Below, in pieces: positions 3,096 to 41,860 of a stretch of DNA of 41,860 bases. The translations under genes and the position numbers were made by a program. The notes below the pieces were generated by a model, which ran no database searches, was not told where the DNA came from, and saw only the letters and a program-made list of their open reading frames with translations. Each line of letters opens with the position of its first letter. Positions within the stretch are counted from its first letter, which is position 1. Source of the stretch: an uncultured Methanomicrobiales archaeon (GTDB taxonomy: Archaea; Halobacteriota; Methanomicrobia; Methanomicrobiales; Methanospirillaceae); assembly GCA_903828975.1 (NCBI GenBank), contig CAIKOD010000114.1, positions 1 through 41,860 on the forward strand. Direction: 5' to 3'.

Positions 3096-3405
3096 TTATG
3101 AAGCAGGACCGCTGTTGGGGAGACCTTTTTTCTCTTCTTCCAGGTGTGTCAGGAACATAAGGCTGGTAGCCACCACAGGCTGATCTGGCAGCCTTAAGGA
3201 AATTACCGGACAATGTTGCTTCGTCCTTGTGACCTGATCCTGACACAAATAACCACTCTATGAGGGTAGTATAAACGAGCTCGCCATGGGCGGGGTGAAA
3301 GTAACGGATCCATGACCCCGGGAAGACAGGTAATTCAGGGGCACTGTTGGCATCCGGCGTAACTTCAAAAATTGCGATTGCTATGTCGACAGGAGTGGGT
3401 TTCAC
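3096..3405 (-). pseudogene. Remnant of an unidentified gene, frameshifted and cut by a repeat
   Basis: On the minus strand a protein-like stretch (VFPGSWIRYFHPAHGELVY, then TTLIEWLFVSGSG) runs to about 3195. There the coding character switches frame and continues as LPDQPVVATSLMFLTHLEEE to a stop at 3096. Neither frame alone explains both halves, so a single-base shift near 3195 is the simple reading. The apparent N-terminus (MKPTPV) is encoded by the repeat copy starting at 3388, so the real 5' part has been lost or displaced. I do not recognise the family. The alternative is that the low-complexity match to coding style is accidental. Confidence 0.35.
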
Positions 3406-3763
3406 CCCTACCCTGCCCCACCCCCAATAAGATATTCATTGACAGGGTTCGATCGGGGCATTGGAAGAAAATTTCATAGATTAAAGAGATGATTCCCTAT
3501 CTCAACCGGGGTCGCTACCGTGGCGGGGCGGAGCCCCGGGAGCGTGACTAACTATTGGAATAATCTAATCTGCAAGACAGATTTGAGAGGGTTTCCAATG
3601 AAAACAGGCATGATGCTAAAAGGCTGCAAGCATACAAAATGAAAATGCCAGTGGGGATTTTCATATTAAATGCCTGATCGGCCCCCATATCAGGAGATTT
3701 TGAACGGGGCATTTTCAATCGTCCGGGTGTGAACTTCCAGTTCATGTGTGTTTCAACAGAGCC
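3388..3763 (+). mobile_element. MITE-like dispersed repeat, copy B (long form, left end lost)
   Basis: It is homologous to copies A and C from the GACAGGAG block through the CCCAATAAGATATTC block, the GGGGCGGAGCCCC hairpin and the right end TTTCAACAGAGCC (to 3763). The left inverted end seen in A and C is not recognisable here. Compared with copy C it carries about 70 extra bases in the right half. Its right boundary lies 79 bases before the channel gene at 3842, so it may supply or disturb that gene's promoter. Confidence 0.65.
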
Positions 3764-3841
3764 GATTTTTGGCCGTTATAGTGAAGGTCAAAGTCCCCGC
3801 AGTAGCTTCCGTGGCCAGCTTTCAACCATAAAACCATATCT

Positions 3842-4854: not shown

Positions 4855-7455
4855 TCACTCCCTTATGCCTCCCGGCATGAGCGGGTTGATACGGCCCCTG
4901 AACTGGCGGTATACAACCCGTATTCCAAAACCGACAACCAGCACAGAGGATGACACAACGATTATTTTTAGCCACTCGTTGAAGGTCAGTGGAACTGTGC
5001 CAAAAACAGACCCGCCATACTGTACAATCAGGATTTGCGCGAGGACAATGAGTCCCATCACTGCGAAAAACGTTGGGTTGCCTTTAAAAAAGGGCGGCAT
5101 CTTCCCGTCAAGTGCCCTGCAGTTGATACCATTCCAGATCGCAGCGATGACAAATGCAGCGAAGAACACTGTTGTAATTTCAGCAGGAGTAGTGCCTCCC
5201 AGGAAGCCTGTTTTCATCTGGATCAATCCGCCGGTGATAAAGAACGTACCCGTTACAATAATTGAAAACCACATAAACGGGGTGATTACCGGTGTATTTC
5301 TCCCGATGGGGAGGCGGTTCATCAGCTCCCGGTGCGGGGCCTCAGAACAGAGTGCAAATGCGGCGAGCGTGTCCATGATCAGGTTAACCCAGAGGATCTG
5401 GATAATGGTAAACGGCTCCGGATATCCAAGGAGCGGGGCAATAAATACCAGAACACAGGCGCAGAAATTGAGCGTGAGCTGGAACAGCACAAAACGCTGG
5501 ATATTCTCATAGAGCGACCTGCCCCACCACACGGCACTTGTAATCGAGGCGAACGAGTCGTCAAGGAGAATAATATCACTCGCCTCTCTCGCAACTTCAG
5601 TCCCTGCAATTCCCATTGCGAGCCCTACATCAGCATTTTTCAGGGCCGGTGCATCGTTCGTCCCGTCGCCGGTGACGGCAACAACATCCCCGTTCTTCTG
5701 GAGGGCCTGGACGAGGAGGAGCTTGTCCATCGGCTCAGCTCGTGCCATTACATCAAGGTTCTGCGCAACTTCGACCTGTTGCTCTGCTGACAAGGATCGG
5801 AATTCCTTCCCATCAACGACAACCCCTCCCGTGAGGATCCCCGAGTCCTCTGCAATGGCTTTTGCGGTCTCCCGGTTATCCCCGGTAACCATCCGGACCC
5901 TGATCCCTGCATCCTGGCAGGTGACGACCGATTCAGCGATATTTTCCCTTAGCGGGTCACGTATACCGACATACCCGTCCCATAGAAGATCGGATTCACT
6001 TTCGTCCCCGTTCACGATCACCTTGTGGGCAAACGCAAGGGTCCGCATCGCCCTGGAAGCGAGCTCACTGACACCAATCAAATCAGGTTGCATTACACAG
6101 AGCGAAGCGAGGATCTCGGGCGCCCCTTTTACCAGCAGGTACGGCGTATCCCCGATATTCACGACGGTTGACATCCTTTTCCTGTTGCCATCAAAGAGGT
6201 ACTGTTTCCGAACCGTGTTCTCTGCACGGATATGTATGTAATCGAGTGAGTGTTCGCGGAGCCACCGGAGAAGGGCCCCTTCAGTAGAGTTTCCAATTAC
6301 TATTATCCGCCCGTCCCGCTCTTCCAGGTAGGCAGTGCCATTCACAGCGGCATTCAGGGTTATCCATTCAGACGGGGTCTGTGGGGTGTTCTCCTGTTGT
6401 GCGGGCTCACCGGCCGAGGCGTGAACCACCTCCATCTGGTTTTTTGTCAGGGTCCCCGTCTTATCCGTGCAGATTGTTGTCGCTGAACCAATCGTCTCAC
6501 AGGCAATCAGTTTCCTCACAAGGCAGTTGGCCCGGGTCATCTTTCGCATTGCAAGGGATAGTGAGAGTGCCACGCTCATCGGAAGCCCTTCCGGGACTGC
6601 AACGACAATAATTGCGACTGCAATCATGAGGTAGTGAAGAACATGGTTCAGGGTGTCAAGGTTCAGCCCGGTCAGTTCCCCGAGTAATATCCCGCGGATC
6701 GACAGGCTGACAAGGATCAGGATACCCATGGTATACCCGAATTTGCTGATGATCCCTGCAAGGGCTTCCAGTTTCTGTTCAAGGGGGGTTGCGGTTGAAT
6801 GGTCGATGCCGAGCGATGCTGCAATTACCCCCATCTGGGCCCTGTCCCCTACCGCCCCGGCAATCATCCGTCCTTTACCAGCGGTAACAAACGTTCCTTT
6901 TAGTACATTATCTGCCGTCCCTTTTCCAACCGGCTCGCTCTCCCCGGTAAATGCAGACTCGTCGCTTGTGAGAGAGTCGGAGGTGATGAGCCAGCCATCC
7001 GCGGGAACCGCATCACCCGCTTCGATGATGATGAGATCACCGACAACAATATCGCGGGAGGGTACCTGGGCCGGGTGACCGTCCCGGATTACCTTGACGC
7101 CAACATCATCCCGGTGGGCATTCAGTACGTCGAATTCTTTGCTGCTCCTGTATTCATTGAAAAAGGATATCCCGGTGGCAAGAAGGATCGCAATAATAAT
7201 CCCGAGGGTATCATAAAAACTGATACCCTGGATTATTGAGACTATCAGGGAGATAACAACAGCAATAATAAGGATTTTGATGATCGGGTCATCGTATTTC
7301 TTCAGGTACTGCAGCCAGAGCGGCTCCCGTACCGGCGGGGTCATGACGTTTGTGCCAAACCTTTCGCGGTACACGGTGACTTCTGAGGACTCAAGACCGC
7401 CTTTACCTGCAAGGAGTGCCCGTTCTTCCGGGGATAGTATGTCGGGTTCTTTCAT
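4855..7455 (-). CDS. Cation-transporting P-type ATPase, PMCA-like (Ca2+ export)
   Basis: This 866-residue P2-type ATPase should couple ATP hydrolysis to Ca2+ export across the membrane. It has the N-terminal cation ATPase domain, an actuator with TGES, and PEGLP in M4 (Glu289). The phosphorylation Asp331 sits in ICTDKTGTLTKNQ, and the hinge reads VTGDGTNDAPALKNADVG. M5 has QLTLNFCACVLVF and M6 has WVNLIMDTLAAFAL; the Asn and Asp in WVNLIMD and the Glu of PEGLP are the expected Ca2+ ligands of plasma-membrane-type pumps. The PMCA-style phrase after M6 ends in EAPHRELMNR. There is no C-terminal calmodulin-like extension. The ATG at 7455 is preferred over an in-frame TTG at 7464. A T-rich stretch follows the stop codon. 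Confidence 0.93.
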   Translation of the reverse strand: MKEPDILSPEERALLAGKGGLESSEVTVYRERFGTNVMTPPVREPLWLQYLKKYDDPIIKILIIAVVISLIVSIIQGISFYDTLGIIIAILLATGISFFNEYRSSKEFDVLNAHRDDVGVKVIRDGHPAQVPSRDIVVGDLIIIEAGDAVPADGWLITSDSLTSDESAFTGESEPVGKGTADNVLKGTFVTAGKGRMIAGAVGDRAQMGVIAASLGIDHSTATPLEQKLEALAGIISKFGYTMGILILVSLSIRGILLGELTGLNLDTLNHVLHYLMIAVAIIVVAVPEGLPMSVALSLSLAMRKMTRANCLVRKLIACETIGSATTICTDKTGTLTKNQMEVVHASAGEPAQQENTPQTPSEWITLNAAVNGTAYLEERDGRIIVIGNSTEGALLRWLREHSLDYIHIRAENTVRKQYLFDGNRKRMSTVVNIGDTPYLLVKGAPEILASLCVMQPDLIGVSELASRAMRTLAFAHKVIVNGDESESDLLWDGYVGIRDPLRENIAESVVTCQDAGIRVRMVTGDNRETAKAIAEDSGILTGGVVVDGKEFRSLSAEQQVEVAQNLDVMARAEPMDKLLLVQALQKNGDVVAVTGDGTNDAPALKNADVGLAMGIAGTEVAREASDIILLDDSFASITSAVWWGRSLYENIQRFVLFQLTLNFCACVLVFIAPLLGYPEPFTIIQILWVNLIMDTLAAFALCSEAPHRELMNRLPIGRNTPVITPFMWFSIIVTGTFFITGGLIQMKTGFLGGTTPAEITTVFFAAFVIAAIWNGINCRALDGKMPPFFKGNPTFFAVMGLIVLAQILIVQYGGSVFGTVPLTFNEWLKIIVVSSSVLVVGFGIRVVYRQFRGRINPLMPGGIRE

Positions 7456-15385: not shown

Positions 15386-15442
15386 TGCTAGGAAATTGGT
15401 GAGAGGAAATATGAATGTGTCGAAAACTATTGCCAGTAATTA

Positions 15443-15797
15443 GGCTTTATTGAAACCATGCGTGTTTAGAAAAATGAAGAGGAAATACGTAGACAGGAGG
15501 GGGTTTCACCCCTCCCTGCTCCACCCCCAATAAGATATTCATTGGCAGGGTTACACTGGGTATTCAATAAAATTTCAGAGATTTGGAGATCATTACCTGT
15601 CACACCGGGGATCGCCACAGCGGCGGGCCATGAGCCCGGGGAGCGTGAAGACTATTGGATTACCCTAATCGGTTGGATAAATTTGAGAAGATTTTGCCTG
15701 AAAATGACAAAACGGACCCCAATACATGGAAATTTTGAACGAGGCATTTTCAATGCCCTGGTGTGAACTTCCCGTTCATGTGGGTTTCAACAAAGCC
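15443..15797 (+). mobile_element. MITE-like dispersed repeat, copy C (complete long form, 355 bp)
   Basis: This is the best preserved copy. The left end GGCTTTATTGAAACC and the right end GGTTTCAACAAAGCC are inverted repeats differing at one position. The 8 bases flanking each side are AGTAATTA (15435-15442) and AGTAATAG (15798-15805), a near-perfect target duplication. Internal blocks match copies A, B and D. Its right half contains about 90 bases absent from copies A and D. There is no credible reading frame. It lies just upstream of the cardiolipin synthase gene. Confidence 0.8.
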
Positions 15798-15934
15798 AGT
15801 AATAGGATACATTCGTTCGAACCAAGGGGCTATCTGGTCAGGAGGAAACAGAAAAAAAATCAAAGATCATATATAGGATTGGATATGCAAGTTTCTCTCA
15901 ACGGTTTTTGAAAAAAAACGTTCTGAGGTGCATT

Positions 15935-17457: not shown

Positions 17458-17721
17458 AGCTCTGTTGACATGCTCTCAAATCTATCTTGCAGATAGGTTA
17501 TTCCAAAATTTAGTCACGCTCCCGGGGATCCGCCCCGCCACCTTGGCGGCCCCGGTTGGGATAAGGAATTATCCCCTAATCTCTGAAATTTTCTTGAATG
17601 CCCGAGTTGAACCCTGCCAATAAATATCTTATTGGGGGTGGGGCAGGGTGGAGGAAAACCCCACCTGGTCTTACGTATCTCCTCTTTTTTTTAAAAAAAA
17701 TATGCGGGGTTTCTACAGATC
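17458..17721 (-). mobile_element. MITE-like dispersed repeat, copy D (short form, 264 bp, inverted)
   Basis: Read on the minus strand it contains the same blocks as copy A: CCCAATAAGATATTT, then a GGCAGGGTTCAAC block, a GGCGGGGCGGATCCCC hairpin and CTCAAATCT-like ends. Its left boundary AGCTCTGTTGACATG (plus strand) corresponds to the right end of copy A. The other end, GGGTTTCTACAGATC, is decayed. Its length equals that of copy A. Flanking duplications are not clear. Confidence 0.7.
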
Positions 17722-36330: not shown

Positions 36331-37053
36331 TTAAATCTTCTTTGACCCTGGCGCCTGGGTGATAATTTTCACAGCGTCCACCATCTCTGGCAGCATTTCA
36401 GCAGGGAATCCCATTACCATTTCATCATCGTTAATACCGGAAAATTTCCTGGAACCATCGCAACCAAGTGAGAAGTTCGGTTTTCCGCTGAGATAGACCT
36501 TTGCAACGGAATCTGAACAGACCGACTGGATACCTGAGAATTCGGCATGTGCCCGGCCACCCAGCTTGAATAAAGAAGACTGTGCAAGTTTCAGCATGGA
36601 CCAGGGAGTGGTAATAACAAGGATGACATGCGGGGTGAAGGGTGTTTTTTCCAGGGGAGCGTACATGGTTGCATAAACATCTCCCGTACCAAGGTGTGGT
36701 ATGCAGTTCATCGTCCTTTTACAGGCTGGTGTACTCGCATATTTTCCCAGCTTAAAATAAAATTTGCCGGTCTTCAGGGTAGGGGAAAGATCTTTAAGTC
36801 CCAACGCCCAGGCACCGCCATTGCACTCGTGCTTATCTGCCGTGGCATAGAAGATTTTCCCTTCGTTCCTCGCAAGGCCAACCATCATACAGTGCTTGAT
36901 TGTTTTATCGATTTCAGGCATCCCAGGTGGGATCTCATCCACGGTTGTTGCAAAACCAACTGCTACGGGGGATCCCTTCAACTTCAGGGAGGTTTTTAGG
37001 GTTTCAGATGCCAGGGCATAATCCATTGTAATCTTCATCGGTGCTTCCATCAT
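36331..37053 (-). CDS. DUF169 family protein
   Basis: This 240-residue cytosolic protein belongs to DUF169, common in methanogens and anaerobic bacteria. Typical segments are LKLKGSPVAVGFATTVDEIP near the start, then IKHCMMVGLARNEG, followed by HECNGGAWALGL and SVCSDSVAKVYLSGKPNFSL in the second half, ending in GCDGSRKF. The several conserved Cys residues suggest a metal or cofactor site, but activity is unknown. The ATG at 37053 is chosen because AGGAG lies 9 bases upstream; an open frame reaches a TTG at 37089. It stands alone, with gaps on both sides. Confidence 0.85.
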   Translation of the reverse strand: MMEAPMKITMDYALASETLKTSLKLKGSPVAVGFATTVDEIPPGMPEIDKTIKHCMMVGLARNEGKIFYATADKHECNGGAWALGLKDLSPTLKTGKFYFKLGKYASTPACKRTMNCIPHLGTGDVYATMYAPLEKTPFTPHVILVITTPWSMLKLAQSSLFKLGGRAHAEFSGIQSVCSDSVAKVYLSGKPNFSLGCDGSRKFSGINDDEMVMGFPAEMLPEMVDAVKIITQAPGSKKI

Positions 37054-37231
37054 AGATGTCGTCTCCTGAACCCATTCAATGGGTAACAACAGTACATATT
37101 GGTAGATTCATTAAAAGATACCGATAGAAAAAACCAAGGAAAATCTTACGTAACACCTGTAATCAATAATCTAAAATTTCCAAAAAACGGGTGTTAAAAA
37201 GGTATGATGAGTGAACTATGTTGAGAATTTT

Positions 37232-38177: not shown

Positions 38178-39512
38178 ATGCCAGTTCAGGAAGACACACC
38201 AGGTAACCCGGTACCACCGGAGCCACGGATTGATGATGATCAGCCATTCCAGTGGACAGGCATGTTCTTTCTGGCAATCATCATCATTGCGCTCATTGCC
38301 ATTGCCTTTACCGCGGGGTTCATGGCCCTGTACGCGTTTCTTACCAAGGCAATCTGGGTCGAGAATGACTTTGTCCTGGCCAACCGGTGGACGATACCCG
38401 TGGGTGTGCTCTTTTTCTCACTCCTGGTCGGGCTTTGCCAGAAATACCTCCATGCACCAACCGTAATCAATGGCGGTTTCGTGGAAAACATGAAGGAACA
38501 AAAACTGGTAACCAACTACCGTGTCTTTCCTGGCGCTTTCCTCTCTTCCATCATCACACTCATCTCCGGTGCGAGTGTCGGACCTGAGGGGACCCTCAAC
38601 ATACTGGTCCCCCAGATCTCTTCATGGATCCGGAACAAATTCCGGATCGCCCGTGGATCAGCTGCAAAACAGCTGGGATTTGACATGGCCGCCCTGTCAT
38701 CGGCATACAATGGCATTGTCGGAAATCCTTTCTTCACCGGGGTCCTGGCGACCGAGTACCGGATAGGAAAGAAGGGCGCCGCCACGTTTCTCGTCTGGAA
38801 CCTGTTGGCAGGCATTGTGGGGTACCTCTTCTACCTTGCCCTTGGATTCCCTTCCTTTGCATCCCTGATCATCTTCCCACCGGTCACTGAACTGTCCACG
38901 GTGACGGTACTCATCGCGATTATCCTTGGAGGGGTTGGGACAATCATCGCGCTGTTCTCAGGTTTTTCCATGAGAGCAATCGGCCGGGTCATGGAGACGA
39001 CGTTCGGGGACCGGGTTGTCCTCCGGACTGTGGCCGCCGGTGCGGTCTTCGCGGTTGTCGGGTATTTCCTCCCAGCGCTGTTATTTTCAGGCGAGGTCCA
39101 AATCCACACGGTCCTCGCGAACCCGGCCGGTGTCGGGGTCGTTATGCTCCTCGTGTATGCCATCCTGAAGATCCCCCTCCTGGCACTTTCCTACAAGAGT
39201 GGGTTTATCGGCGGCCCGATTTTTCCCGTGCTCTTCTCCTGCACGATGCTCGGTCTCGCCCTCTCCCTGATCTTCCCATCGGTACCGGTTGGTATCTTCG
39301 TACTGTGTATAGAGGCCGCGGCCTTCACCCTCGCTCTCGGGGTCCCTATCTCGGCGATCCTCCTCCTCTTTGTGATGAGTGAACCCAGCCCCGAGTTAAC
39401 GGTGCTCGTCGTGATCTCTGCAACAACCAGCCTTGTTCTCGGTGCCCTCCTGAAGCAGATGAAGGAACGTGGTTCCCCTGAACAGGTCGAACAGGTTGCC
39501 GGTCCGGCCTGA
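38178..39512 (+). CDS. ClC family chloride channel/transporter (copy 2)
   Basis: This 444-residue ClC protein is paralogous to the one at 9667, with the same unusual core. GASVGPEGT places the gating Glu at residue 137 but has Thr where most ClCs have Pro. KSGFIGGPIFPVLFSCTMLG gives the Cl--binding turn. The GSGIP signature is missing, as in copy 1. The N-terminal 25 residues are acidic and proline-rich and the C-terminal tail (about 25 residues) is charged; there are no CBS domains. GC is somewhat higher than in copy 1. It is transcribed alone from a TATA box at 38138. Likely role: chloride/proton exchange at the cytoplasmic membrane. Confidence 0.9.
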   Translation: MPVQEDTPGNPVPPEPRIDDDQPFQWTGMFFLAIIIIALIAIAFTAGFMALYAFLTKAIWVENDFVLANRWTIPVGVLFFSLLVGLCQKYLHAPTVINGGFVENMKEQKLVTNYRVFPGAFLSSIITLISGASVGPEGTLNILVPQISSWIRNKFRIARGSAAKQLGFDMAALSSAYNGIVGNPFFTGVLATEYRIGKKGAATFLVWNLLAGIVGYLFYLALGFPSFASLIIFPPVTELSTVTVLIAIILGGVGTIIALFSGFSMRAIGRVMETTFGDRVVLRTVAAGAVFAVVGYFLPALLFSGEVQIHTVLANPAGVGVVMLLVYAILKIPLLALSYKSGFIGGPIFPVLFSCTMLGLALSLIFPSVPVGIFVLCIEAAAFTLALGVPISAILLLFVMSEPSPELTVLVVISATTSLVLGALLKQMKERGSPEQVEQVAGPA

Positions 39513-39711: not shown

Positions 39712-40251
39712 TCACTTTTTAACGATGGGTAACCTTGCCAGATCCGGGTTGATATCATACGTCCAGGGCAACCCGGAATTTTTCCATCCATTCCGCATCC
39801 GCTTCCCATAAAATACGCTACCCGGATCGTCCACCTTGTCCCCTTCCATACCATCCGTGATGTTGTAAACGTTCACAAACCCGGCTTTTGCCATATGGTT
39901 GACCGCAATGGCACTACGGCCCCCTGACCGGCACAGGACAAGAAGCGTATCGGTGGGAGCATACAGGCCCTTCACCTGGCGAATGAAATCGGGATTGGGT
40001 TCCACTACCGGTTCTTTCCTGTCTGCGTCCCACTGGTGTTTTACAAAGAGGAGGGGAATGTTCCTTGCCATCTCCGCATGACCGACAAATATGTATTCTT
40101 CCGGGGTACGGACGTCGAGTATAGTGATCGCTCCGGCCCCGGATTTCCACATCTCGTATGCCTCTTTTGATGTAACATAGAGCCCCAGGCTTGTCTCCTT
40201 TTTTTTAGGTATCTGCAGGCCCGGTTGGGAGCTTATTTCTTCAGTTGTCAT
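39712..40251 (-). CDS. Rhodanese-like sulfurtransferase
   Basis: This 179-residue protein carries a single rhodanese domain (about 25-165). ITILDVRTPEEYIFVGHAEM is its first hallmark and LLVLCRSGGRSA the active-site loop, with the sulfur-carrying Cys107. The closing NITDGMEGDKVDDPGS is also typical. The first 24 residues are hydrophilic and there is no signal peptide, so it is cytosolic. It probably carries persulfide sulfur or transfers it to a partner. It lies 90 bases downstream of the DszB-like gene on the same strand, so the two may be co-transcribed. This is relevant because a desulfinase releases sulfite, which rhodaneses can act on (inference). Confidence 0.88.
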   Translation of the reverse strand: MTTEEISSQPGLQIPKKKETSLGLYVTSKEAYEMWKSGAGAITILDVRTPEEYIFVGHAEMARNIPLLFVKHQWDADRKEPVVEPNPDFIRQVKGLYAPTDTLLVLCRSGGRSAIAVNHMAKAGFVNVYNITDGMEGDKVDDPGSVFYGKRMRNGWKNSGLPWTYDINPDLARLPIVKK

Positions 40252-40341: not shown

Positions 40342-41508
40342 CTACCCGAGCCGTGTGCCTTCCACATTAAGCCCGCCTCCCTGGGGAAGCTTGCTCCAGC
40401 TATTTCTCTGCCATTCTTCCTTGAGCACTTCGTTAGCCGCCTTTTCCAGGAATTCCGGTGCTGCCCACTTGTCCACATCGAAGTCGTTCTTAATGTAGCC
40501 GTGGCTCAACATGAAGTCCTTGCCGATCTTGATGCATTGCAGGTTCTGTGCACTCAGGCTCGGCACCATGTCGACGTCCCTGATGCCCTTGCAGGTGTCC
40601 TCGGCATCGAGGTAGAACGTCTGCCGGTTGAGGATCGCCCCTGCAGCGTGCTTGTTCTCGTTCGCCCAGCGCCCGACCCTGATCATGGCCTTCATGTAGG
40701 CAATGACCAGCTCAGGGTGCTCCCTGGCCATCACATCGGTACAGGTAATCACCGCGGGGGTGTTGGCCACCTGCACGGTGTAGTCCGGGTACCTGGACAG
40801 GTCCTCGATCATCTTGATCCTGCCTGTCGCCTCCTGCAGGTGCTGGAAGACCTTACTCTGGGTGTAGATGGCATCGACGGCACCCTTCAACAGTGCCGTC
40901 TCCAGCGGGCGGAAGGCAAGGTCGTGCTTGTGGTCACGGCGCATCCACAGCTCAGACGGGTTGTTCATCGGCGGGACCAGCATCTCGGGTTTGTCATACC
41001 AGTCGTCAGGGTAGGGGAATTCAACGAGCTCAACATCGTCCATGGTCATGTCGTTCAGCTTCAGCATGTTCTCGATGCCCATATGTTCCTGTATGCGCCA
41101 CCAGTCGTTCTTGATGGTGTTCAGACTCTTCGAGATGCCGATCTTCCTGCCCTTCAGGTCCTTCATCCGATAGATCGGATCCCCGGCACGCACCGCCATA
41201 CAACCGCCCTCGTAGACCCACGTCGCCCCAAGCAGCACGGTCCGGCGGATGTCGGCATGAACATGGATGGGGGGATACAGGCCGCCGAAGCGGATGAGGT
41301 TGTCGAGGTTATGGATGTAGTGCGGGTACCAGTTGTTCTCGGGTGCGTGACGGAAATAAGCGTACTCGACACCGATCTTCTTGAACTCCTCACGGCACCA
41401 CCCCAGTTCCTGGTCGACGTTGTTGGCGGATACCATCGGGCAGTTGGTGAACCACACCTCTTTCCAGTTCAGCGGTACCGTGGTGGACTTCTTTATTTGA
41501 TTCGTCAT
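40342..41508 (-). CDS. DszB-like (NMT1/SsuA-fold) protein, candidate desulfinase
   Basis: This 388-residue soluble protein has the two-lobed NMT1/THI5-type fold. It resembles 2'-hydroxybiphenyl-2-sulfinate desulfinase (DszB) from the dibenzothiophene pathway. Shared features are FTNCP (Cys23; DszB YSNCP, Cys27), RFGGLYPPI (DszB RFGGEIPPL, Arg70), LKGRKIGIS and the near-identical DKWAAPEFL ending. His63 lies exactly 10 residues before Arg73, as His60 does before Arg70 in DszB, so the whole C-H-R triad is kept. No signal peptide or lipobox is present, unlike a periplasmic binding protein. Codon use is GC-rich compared with neighbours, suggesting import from bacteria. An AATTTATTAATG-like box and AAAGGAAATTCACC precede the ATG. 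It may instead act on another sulfinate or bind a different ligand. Confidence 0.75.
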   Translation of the reverse strand: MTNQIKKSTTVPLNWKEVWFTNCPMVSANNVDQELGWCREEFKKIGVEYAYFRHAPENNWYPHYIHNLDNLIRFGGLYPPIHVHADIRRTVLLGATWVYEGGCMAVRAGDPIYRMKDLKGRKIGISKSLNTIKNDWWRIQEHMGIENMLKLNDMTMDDVELVEFPYPDDWYDKPEMLVPPMNNPSELWMRRDHKHDLAFRPLETALLKGAVDAIYTQSKVFQHLQEATGRIKMIEDLSRYPDYTVQVANTPAVITCTDVMAREHPELVIAYMKAMIRVGRWANENKHAAGAILNRQTFYLDAEDTCKGIRDVDMVPSLSAQNLQCIKIGKDFMLSHGYIKNDFDVDKWAAPEFLEKAANEVLKEEWQRNSWSKLPQGGGLNVEGTRLG

Positions 41509-41728
41509 GGTGAATTTCCTTTCTTTATCGTAGATGGCAATACAGTCGTTGAGGCATTAATAAATTTGCTTAGGTGAGAGTCATTTCGTGGGAACTTATG
41601 TTCACCCTGAAGATCAGAAACAGGAGTAATTTTGGGGATTTTTCCCGTATTACCTATTGAAAAGGGAAAATTTCGTACAAGCCGGGCAAAAAGAGGGATC
41701 CACTCCCAACCTTACCTGCCATTATTGT

Positions 41729-41740
41729 TTTATATAGTAT
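41729..41740 (+). promoter_or_regulatory. TATA box for the gene starting at 41826
   Basis: TTTATATAGTAT is a strong archaeal TATA box. The predicted start near 41765 would leave about 60 bases of leader before the ATG. Confidence 0.55.
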
Positions 41741-41798
41741 AAGGAGAACTCTTTCCAAGAAACAAATTCTTCAGGTCAGGGGAGTCATTCATCGCCCC

Positions 41799-41810
41799 AT
41801 GTAGCTACAT
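41799..41810. promoter_or_regulatory. Perfect 12-base palindrome, possible operator
   Basis: ATGTAGCTACAT lies in the predicted leader, 16 bases before the ATG at 41826. A dimeric regulator could bind it and block transcription; this is inference from symmetry and position. Confidence 0.35.
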
Positions 41811-41825
41811 TGAGAGAGTAACAGT

Positions 41826-41860
41826 ATGACAGAGACAAAAATTTCCTTCAACCGGGAGTC
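41826..41860 (+). CDS. Start of a gene running off the right window edge
   Basis: Only MTETKISFNRE is visible. The ATG follows a TATA box and a leader with a palindrome, and has a weak GAGAGAG site upstream. The family cannot be determined from 11 residues. Confidence 0.4.
   Translation, partial: MTETKISFNRE

Follow-up and report, generated by a model that had tools for sequence, protein, structure and literature searches.

Locus and host

The window analyzed here is a stretch of 41,860 nucleotides (contig CAIKOD010000114.1, assembly GCA_903828975.1) from an uncultured Methanomicrobiales archaeon. It contains a gene coding for a DszB-like protein (designated DszBL) and, directly downstream on the same strand, a rhodanese gene (Table 1). 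DszB, the 2'-hydroxybiphenyl-2-sulfinate (HBPS) desulfinase (PDB 2DE2/2DE3), removes sulfite from aromatic sulfinates. Both the rhodanese neighbor and the probable methanogenic nature of the host had been pointed out in a first-pass annotation of this DNA, and both were confirmed. The host is a methanogen, since another contig of the genome carries a truncated match to McrA (438 bits, E=7e-131) that spans model positions 310-548. Contamination is unlikely and the window contig belongs to this host, because several parts of the window are ~75-97% identical at the DNA level to genomes of the same genus. The window also contains dispersed repeats of ~250-380 bp that are 72-95% identical (2452-2714, 3388-3770, 15440-15805 and 17459-17718); copies in either orientation are found on dozens of host contigs and in same-genus genomes.

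Table 1. Positions of DszBL, its conserved residues and neighboring genes in the window
Feature	Coordinates	Strand	Remarks
DszBL gene	40342..41508	-	ATG start; 388 aa; cytosolic
Cys23 codon	41440..41442	-	aligned to DszB Cys27; 79/79 covering relatives
His63 codon	41320..41322	-	aligned to DszB His60; 81/81
Arg73 codon (RFGG)	41290..41292	-	aligned to DszB Arg70; 81/81
C-terminal DKWAAPEFL motif	40447..40473	-	in common with DszB (DQWAAPEFL)
Rhodanese	39712..40251	-	179 aa; PF00581; Cys107 in CRSGGRS; intact six-residue Cys loop
CLC-type chloride channel	38178..39512	+	near DszBL also in G096 and L062
DUF169 (COG2043) protein	36331..37089	-	78% identical to the protein directly beside DszBL in G096

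Relation to DszB

DszB was the only PDB match of the window protein in a single-sequence phmmer search (chains at E=4.9e-12 and 1.2e-11). When a profile of 78 family members was compared with PDB, DszB was found at 2.6e-13 and the runner-up, a putative exported protein, at 0.008. The first-pass annotation had proposed an intact Cys-His-Arg triad and an ending nearly that of DszB, and alignments upheld both. Cys23 lies in a TNCP motif and His63 and Arg73 lie in YPHYIHNLDNLIRFGG, with a His-Arg spacing of 10 in the window protein as in DszB (His60-Arg70), and the C-terminal motifs of the two proteins are identical in 8 of 9 residues. Besides the triad, Gly76 and Thr21 correspond to Gly73 and Ser25 of DszB, so that Cys, His-x9-Arg and RXGG all occupy DszB positions; Cys27, His60, Arg70, Gly73 and Ser25 make up the DszB active site as modeled in the literature (PMC6100217; PMC12168087). 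The triad is invariant in the 81 aligned members, Cys23 being present in every sequence that covers it, and RXGG does not vary in the family either. The triad conservation, together with the PDB search, excludes a chance motif match. However, the role of the RXGG Arg in DszB is equivocal, as Arg70 mutants were insoluble and the residue was assumed to be structural (PMC6100217); therefore, conservation of Arg73 alone is no proof of catalysis.

The first-pass annotation had suggested a structural comparison with DszB. When an AlphaFold model built from the same 78-member alignment (pLDDT 88.6, pTM 0.88) was compared with known structures by Foldseek, the three DszB entries came first (~3e-18), followed by SsuA (5e-14) and Thi5 (2e-11). 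TM-scores between the model and DszB were moderate (0.63-0.71) with a large rmsd, which a difference between open and closed domain arrangements would explain. The model has low confidence at residues 51-70 and 171-200, just where DszB has its substrate-closing segments; in DszB, residues 55-62 and 187-204 turn helical and close on the substrate (PMC6100217). By sequence and predicted structure, the window protein is placed in the DszB superfamily but outside DszB proper, in a subfamily of its own. The two share the fold, the triad, RXGG, the WAAPEFL motif, the position of the mobile lids and the absence of a signal peptide, but are only ~25-29% identical.

Distribution, conservation and probable lateral transfer

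A single scan of genome contigs identified 97 relatives, of which 80, showing 65-92% identity to the window protein, were retained. They came from at least 14 bacterial phyla as well as from Methanomicrobiales and Methanotrichaceae (taxa as named in the records), and additional members were present on Rhizobium plasmids (70% and 66% identity). The first-pass description of a DszB-like protein in an archaeon was therefore correct as to its presence there, but the protein is not specifically archaeal, and bacterial homologs are up to 92% identical. In the family, 105 alignment positions were conserved in at least 98% of sequences, and the invariant polar residues His66, Asn67, Arg191, His193 and Lys194 were absent from DszB. 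The window gene is under purifying selection: compared with its Anaerolinea homolog, dS was 0.58 and dN 0.068, and dN/dS of DszBL was ~0.1-0.2.

Among 393 genomes sampled from the host phylum, only two other matches were detected (genomes G096 and G264). The G096 gene (L010, 10023-11229) is interrupted by in-frame stops and the G264 copy (L011, around 6810-6992) is a remnant of 54 residues, each with a rhodanese gene nearby; these broken copies suggest gain and decay of DszBL in archaeal lineages. In the phylogenetic tree, the window protein fell amid Chloroflexota and Actinomycetota sequences, including the 92% identical Anaerolinea protein, the other two archaeal copies were placed apart from it, and monophyly of the archaeal copies was rejected (AU p=0.0016). 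Because the archaeal copies are scattered and a single archaeal clade is rejected, methanogens most likely acquired DszBL from bacteria at least twice. DszBL is apparently an undescribed, widely transferred and strongly conserved clade of the DszB superfamily, and this clade is the larger part of the finding, the archaeal occurrence the lesser. In the open-access literature, we found no paper on DszB relatives associated with rhodanese or present in archaea; PMC11237513 was considered and set aside as no more than a cited cysteine-sulfinate paper. A search for viral carriers of DszBL gave 336 pattern hits, none of which was a relative. In Tateyamaria pelophila, three DszBL genes occur within 8 kb (L058, 1311-9418), one of which has TTCQ in place of TNCP with the Cys retained.

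Genomic context

Rhodanese-domain genes reached a density of 22 per 100 kb in the first kilobase around DszBL. The density was 8.9 between 1 and 2.5 kb and 3.6 between 2.5 and 5 kb, and it fell to 0-0.6 at distances above 5 kb. This drop with distance serves as an internal control, and the association with rhodanese is therefore specific. The window rhodanese has a C-terminal KNGWKNSG.PW extension common to rhodaneses beside other DszBL genes, and the neighboring rhodaneses were mostly either of this type or fusions of CoA-disulfide reductase and rhodanese; one or the other was present at all four archaeal loci with a recognizable gene body (the window, G096, L028 and L062).

The densities of SulP and BASS hardly fell with distance beyond 1 kb, so these were treated as shared island cargo rather than specific partners, and GRE and sulfatase occurred in numbers too low for them to be assessed as partners. 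MarC and enoyl-CoA hydratase were located within 1 kb of DszBL in 6 of 7 and 5 of 7 cases, respectively. The DUF169 protein has a possible role with DszBL, but no such protein was found near bacterial DszBL genes; the CLC-type chloride channel is probably island cargo. The terminal 136 bp of the window (41725-41860) have an exact copy in another contig of the same genome (G000:C5; L111, L113), which diverges from the window after the repeat and carries genes for SulP, an anaerobic sulfatase maturase (TIGR03942) and an arylsulfatase. A join of the two contigs is plausible and carries no weight in the argument.

Proposed function and alternatives

We propose that DszBL is a cofactor-free, Cys-dependent lyase that would liberate sulfite from a polar sulfinate, that its reaction is coupled to sulfur transfer by rhodanese, and that the gene was laterally acquired from bacteria; we put the probability of this reading at about 55%. 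The substrate would be more polar than hydroxybiphenyl-sulfinate; Arg73, His63 and the Gly76 backbone would bind its sulfinate group (R-SO2-), and two mobile lids would close over it. Cys23, acting as proton donor or as nucleophile, would cleave the C-S bond, releasing sulfite. For DszB, both proton transfer from Cys27 (electrophilic substitution) and a nucleophilic route have been proposed (PMC6100217). We infer a different, more polar substrate at the same sulfinate site because the sulfinate-site residues are retained and invariant polar residues stand at the lid positions (Tyr63 to His66 and Phe203 to Lys194, plus Arg191 and His193). Sulfurtransferases are described in PMC7545470, citing Sorbo 1957, as placing sulfane sulfur on sulfite and on sulfinates such as hypotaurine, from which thiols can release it. 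Rhodanese could therefore act either before DszBL, taking the outer sulfur off a thiosulfonate to give the sulfinate, or after it, adding sulfane sulfur to the released sulfite to give thiosulfate; elsewhere, the NADH-linked CoA-disulfide-reductase/rhodanese fusion may have the same role. In a methanogen, coenzyme M synthesis could draw on this sulfite; in methanotrophic archaea, sulfite is essential for coenzyme M, and where it comes from in situ has been described as unclear (PMC6286981). Points against the lyase reading are the low identity to DszB, the absence of a sulfinate-generating monooxygenase from the available flanks (up to 10 kb) of DszBL at the 80 loci, and the equivocal role of the RXGG Arg in DszB.

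The relatives of DszBL are usually annotated in databases as binding proteins, the SsuA/TauA sulfonate-binding proteins belong to the same fold class, and the window protein gives weak matches to Pfam NMT1 (30 bits) and SsuA_fam (TIGR01728; 50.5 bits). These points would agree with a role as the binding component of a sulfonate/taurine-type ABC transporter, or as a cytosolic sensor that evolved from such a component. However, SsuA/TauA proteins are secreted, have ABC partners and lack the triad, and DszBL is unlike them in all three respects. The SsuA_fam score is far below the curated cut-off of 163.5 bits. The lack of a signal peptide, on which a binding protein had been doubted in the first-pass annotation, was substantiated: neither a signal peptide nor a lipobox is present in the window protein, no N-terminal hydrophobic segment occurs in the family, and the best 14-residue N-terminal hydropathy is 0.51 for the window protein and at most 0.83 in the family versus 2.8-3.4 in four true binding proteins. 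The triad is missing in four true binding proteins, two of which are from the same genome as the window gene, and RXGG too is absent from true binding proteins. An SsuC-type permease was found at none of the 80 loci in the available flanks of up to 10 kb, which are short at many loci, where absence of a neighbor is weaker evidence; SsuB-like genes were present at three, the nearest 2.9 kb away. In a tree with long branches, the cytosolic triad-bearing proteins were split from binding proteins with 99/98 support. Since true binding proteins lack the triad and no locus has a sulfonate-ABC permease, we consider a binding function improbable. A Thi5/NMT1-type pyrimidine synthase is harder still to reconcile with the data. 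Thi5/NMT1 (HMP-P synthase) likewise acts in the cytosol and descends from a binding protein, has the fold in common with DszBL, would explain the Pfam NMT1 hit and is among the Foldseek matches, but it uses PLP in a different chemistry and is only ~10-13% identical in structural alignment. No Thi5 chain was found up to E=10 in the PDB profile search, Foldseek ranked Thi5 below DszB (E ~1e-11 versus 3e-18), and thiamin genes were absent from the recurring neighbor clusters of DszBL. No orthology to a characterized binding protein, which the first-pass annotation had named as a refuting outcome, was detected, and SsuA and Thi5 fell below DszB by both structure and sequence.

The triad, fold and C-terminal motif would also fit a true DszB, which carries out HBPS desulfination as the last step of 4S-type desulfurization. 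This is highly unlikely, as DszB has DszA/DszC as partners whereas that of DszBL is rhodanese, and dszA/dszC-type genes (LLM/DszA-like or acyl-CoA-dehydrogenase/DszC-like) occurred at none of the 80 loci within available flanks of up to 10 kb. Loop 2 of DszB (135-150; PMC12168087) is mostly gapped in DszBL, the lid residues are now polar, and DszBL, unlike DszB, is found in anaerobes, including the present host, whereas the 4S monooxygenases require O2. A more serious, if still doubtful, alternative is that DszBL keeps the fold and triad of DszB but catalyzes another reaction, such as sulfur transfer on a persulfide or thiosulfate-like substrate, or cleavage of a C-C bond or a different C-S bond. 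Cys23 would then serve as nucleophile or acid, and DszBL would not be a sulfinate desulfinase. The strong link to rhodanese and persulfide-reductase-like fusions with none to sulfone monooxygenases, the many invariant polar residues lacking in DszB, and the occurrence in strict anaerobes, which have no obvious sulfinates, all agree with this. Yet every sulfinate-site residue of DszB is retained, and the rhodanese link is equally expected for sulfinate or thiosulfonate chemistry. The wider triad-bearing group includes DszB and DszB-like proteins, several of the latter encoded beside LLM flavin or acyl-CoA-dehydrogenase-type oxygenases, the setting that sulfinate cleavage as a common function would predict. 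These oxygenase-operon proteins (Sphingobium, Rhizobium acidisoli and Sinorhizobium; L008, L009 and L098) are cytosolic and keep the triad and RXGG, but are 23-27% identical to DszBL and form a separate clade. Grouping of DszBL with DszB versus with the monooxygenase-operon clade was not distinguished by topology tests (p ~0.25). One Sphingobium plasmid gene matching DszBL proteins (L008, 13253-14308), annotated as 'soxB monooxygenase', is probably a second, misannotated DszB-like gene.

In the usual view, DszB is a slow enzyme that serves the aerobic desulfurization of fuels; its rate is the lowest in the 4S pathway (PMC6100217). A clade with a complete triad that is tied to rhodanese and annotated solely as a binding protein points to a widespread, uncharacterized organosulfur reaction, and sulfite-releasing DszBL proteins would offer new desulfinase templates and a possible archaeal source of sulfite. 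More tentatively, DszBL and rhodanese, single or fused, may form an O2-independent thiosulfonate module in which sulfur is stripped, the C-S bond is then cut and sulfite is released, supplying coenzyme M in methanogens. If true, this would be C-S cleavage without O2, radical or PLP chemistry, moved across phyla into methanogens.

In Rhizobium leguminosarum ATCC 14479 (L006, 9484-14912), DszBL directly follows a conserved benzoyl-CoA-reductase/double-cubane-type pair, and two activases are also present; the same order of pair and DszBL was present in a Desulfobacteraceae MAG (L037, upstream of 6688), the two pairs matching each other at E ~1e-246 and ~1e-233. In these two genomes, the pair might make a sulfinate reductively.
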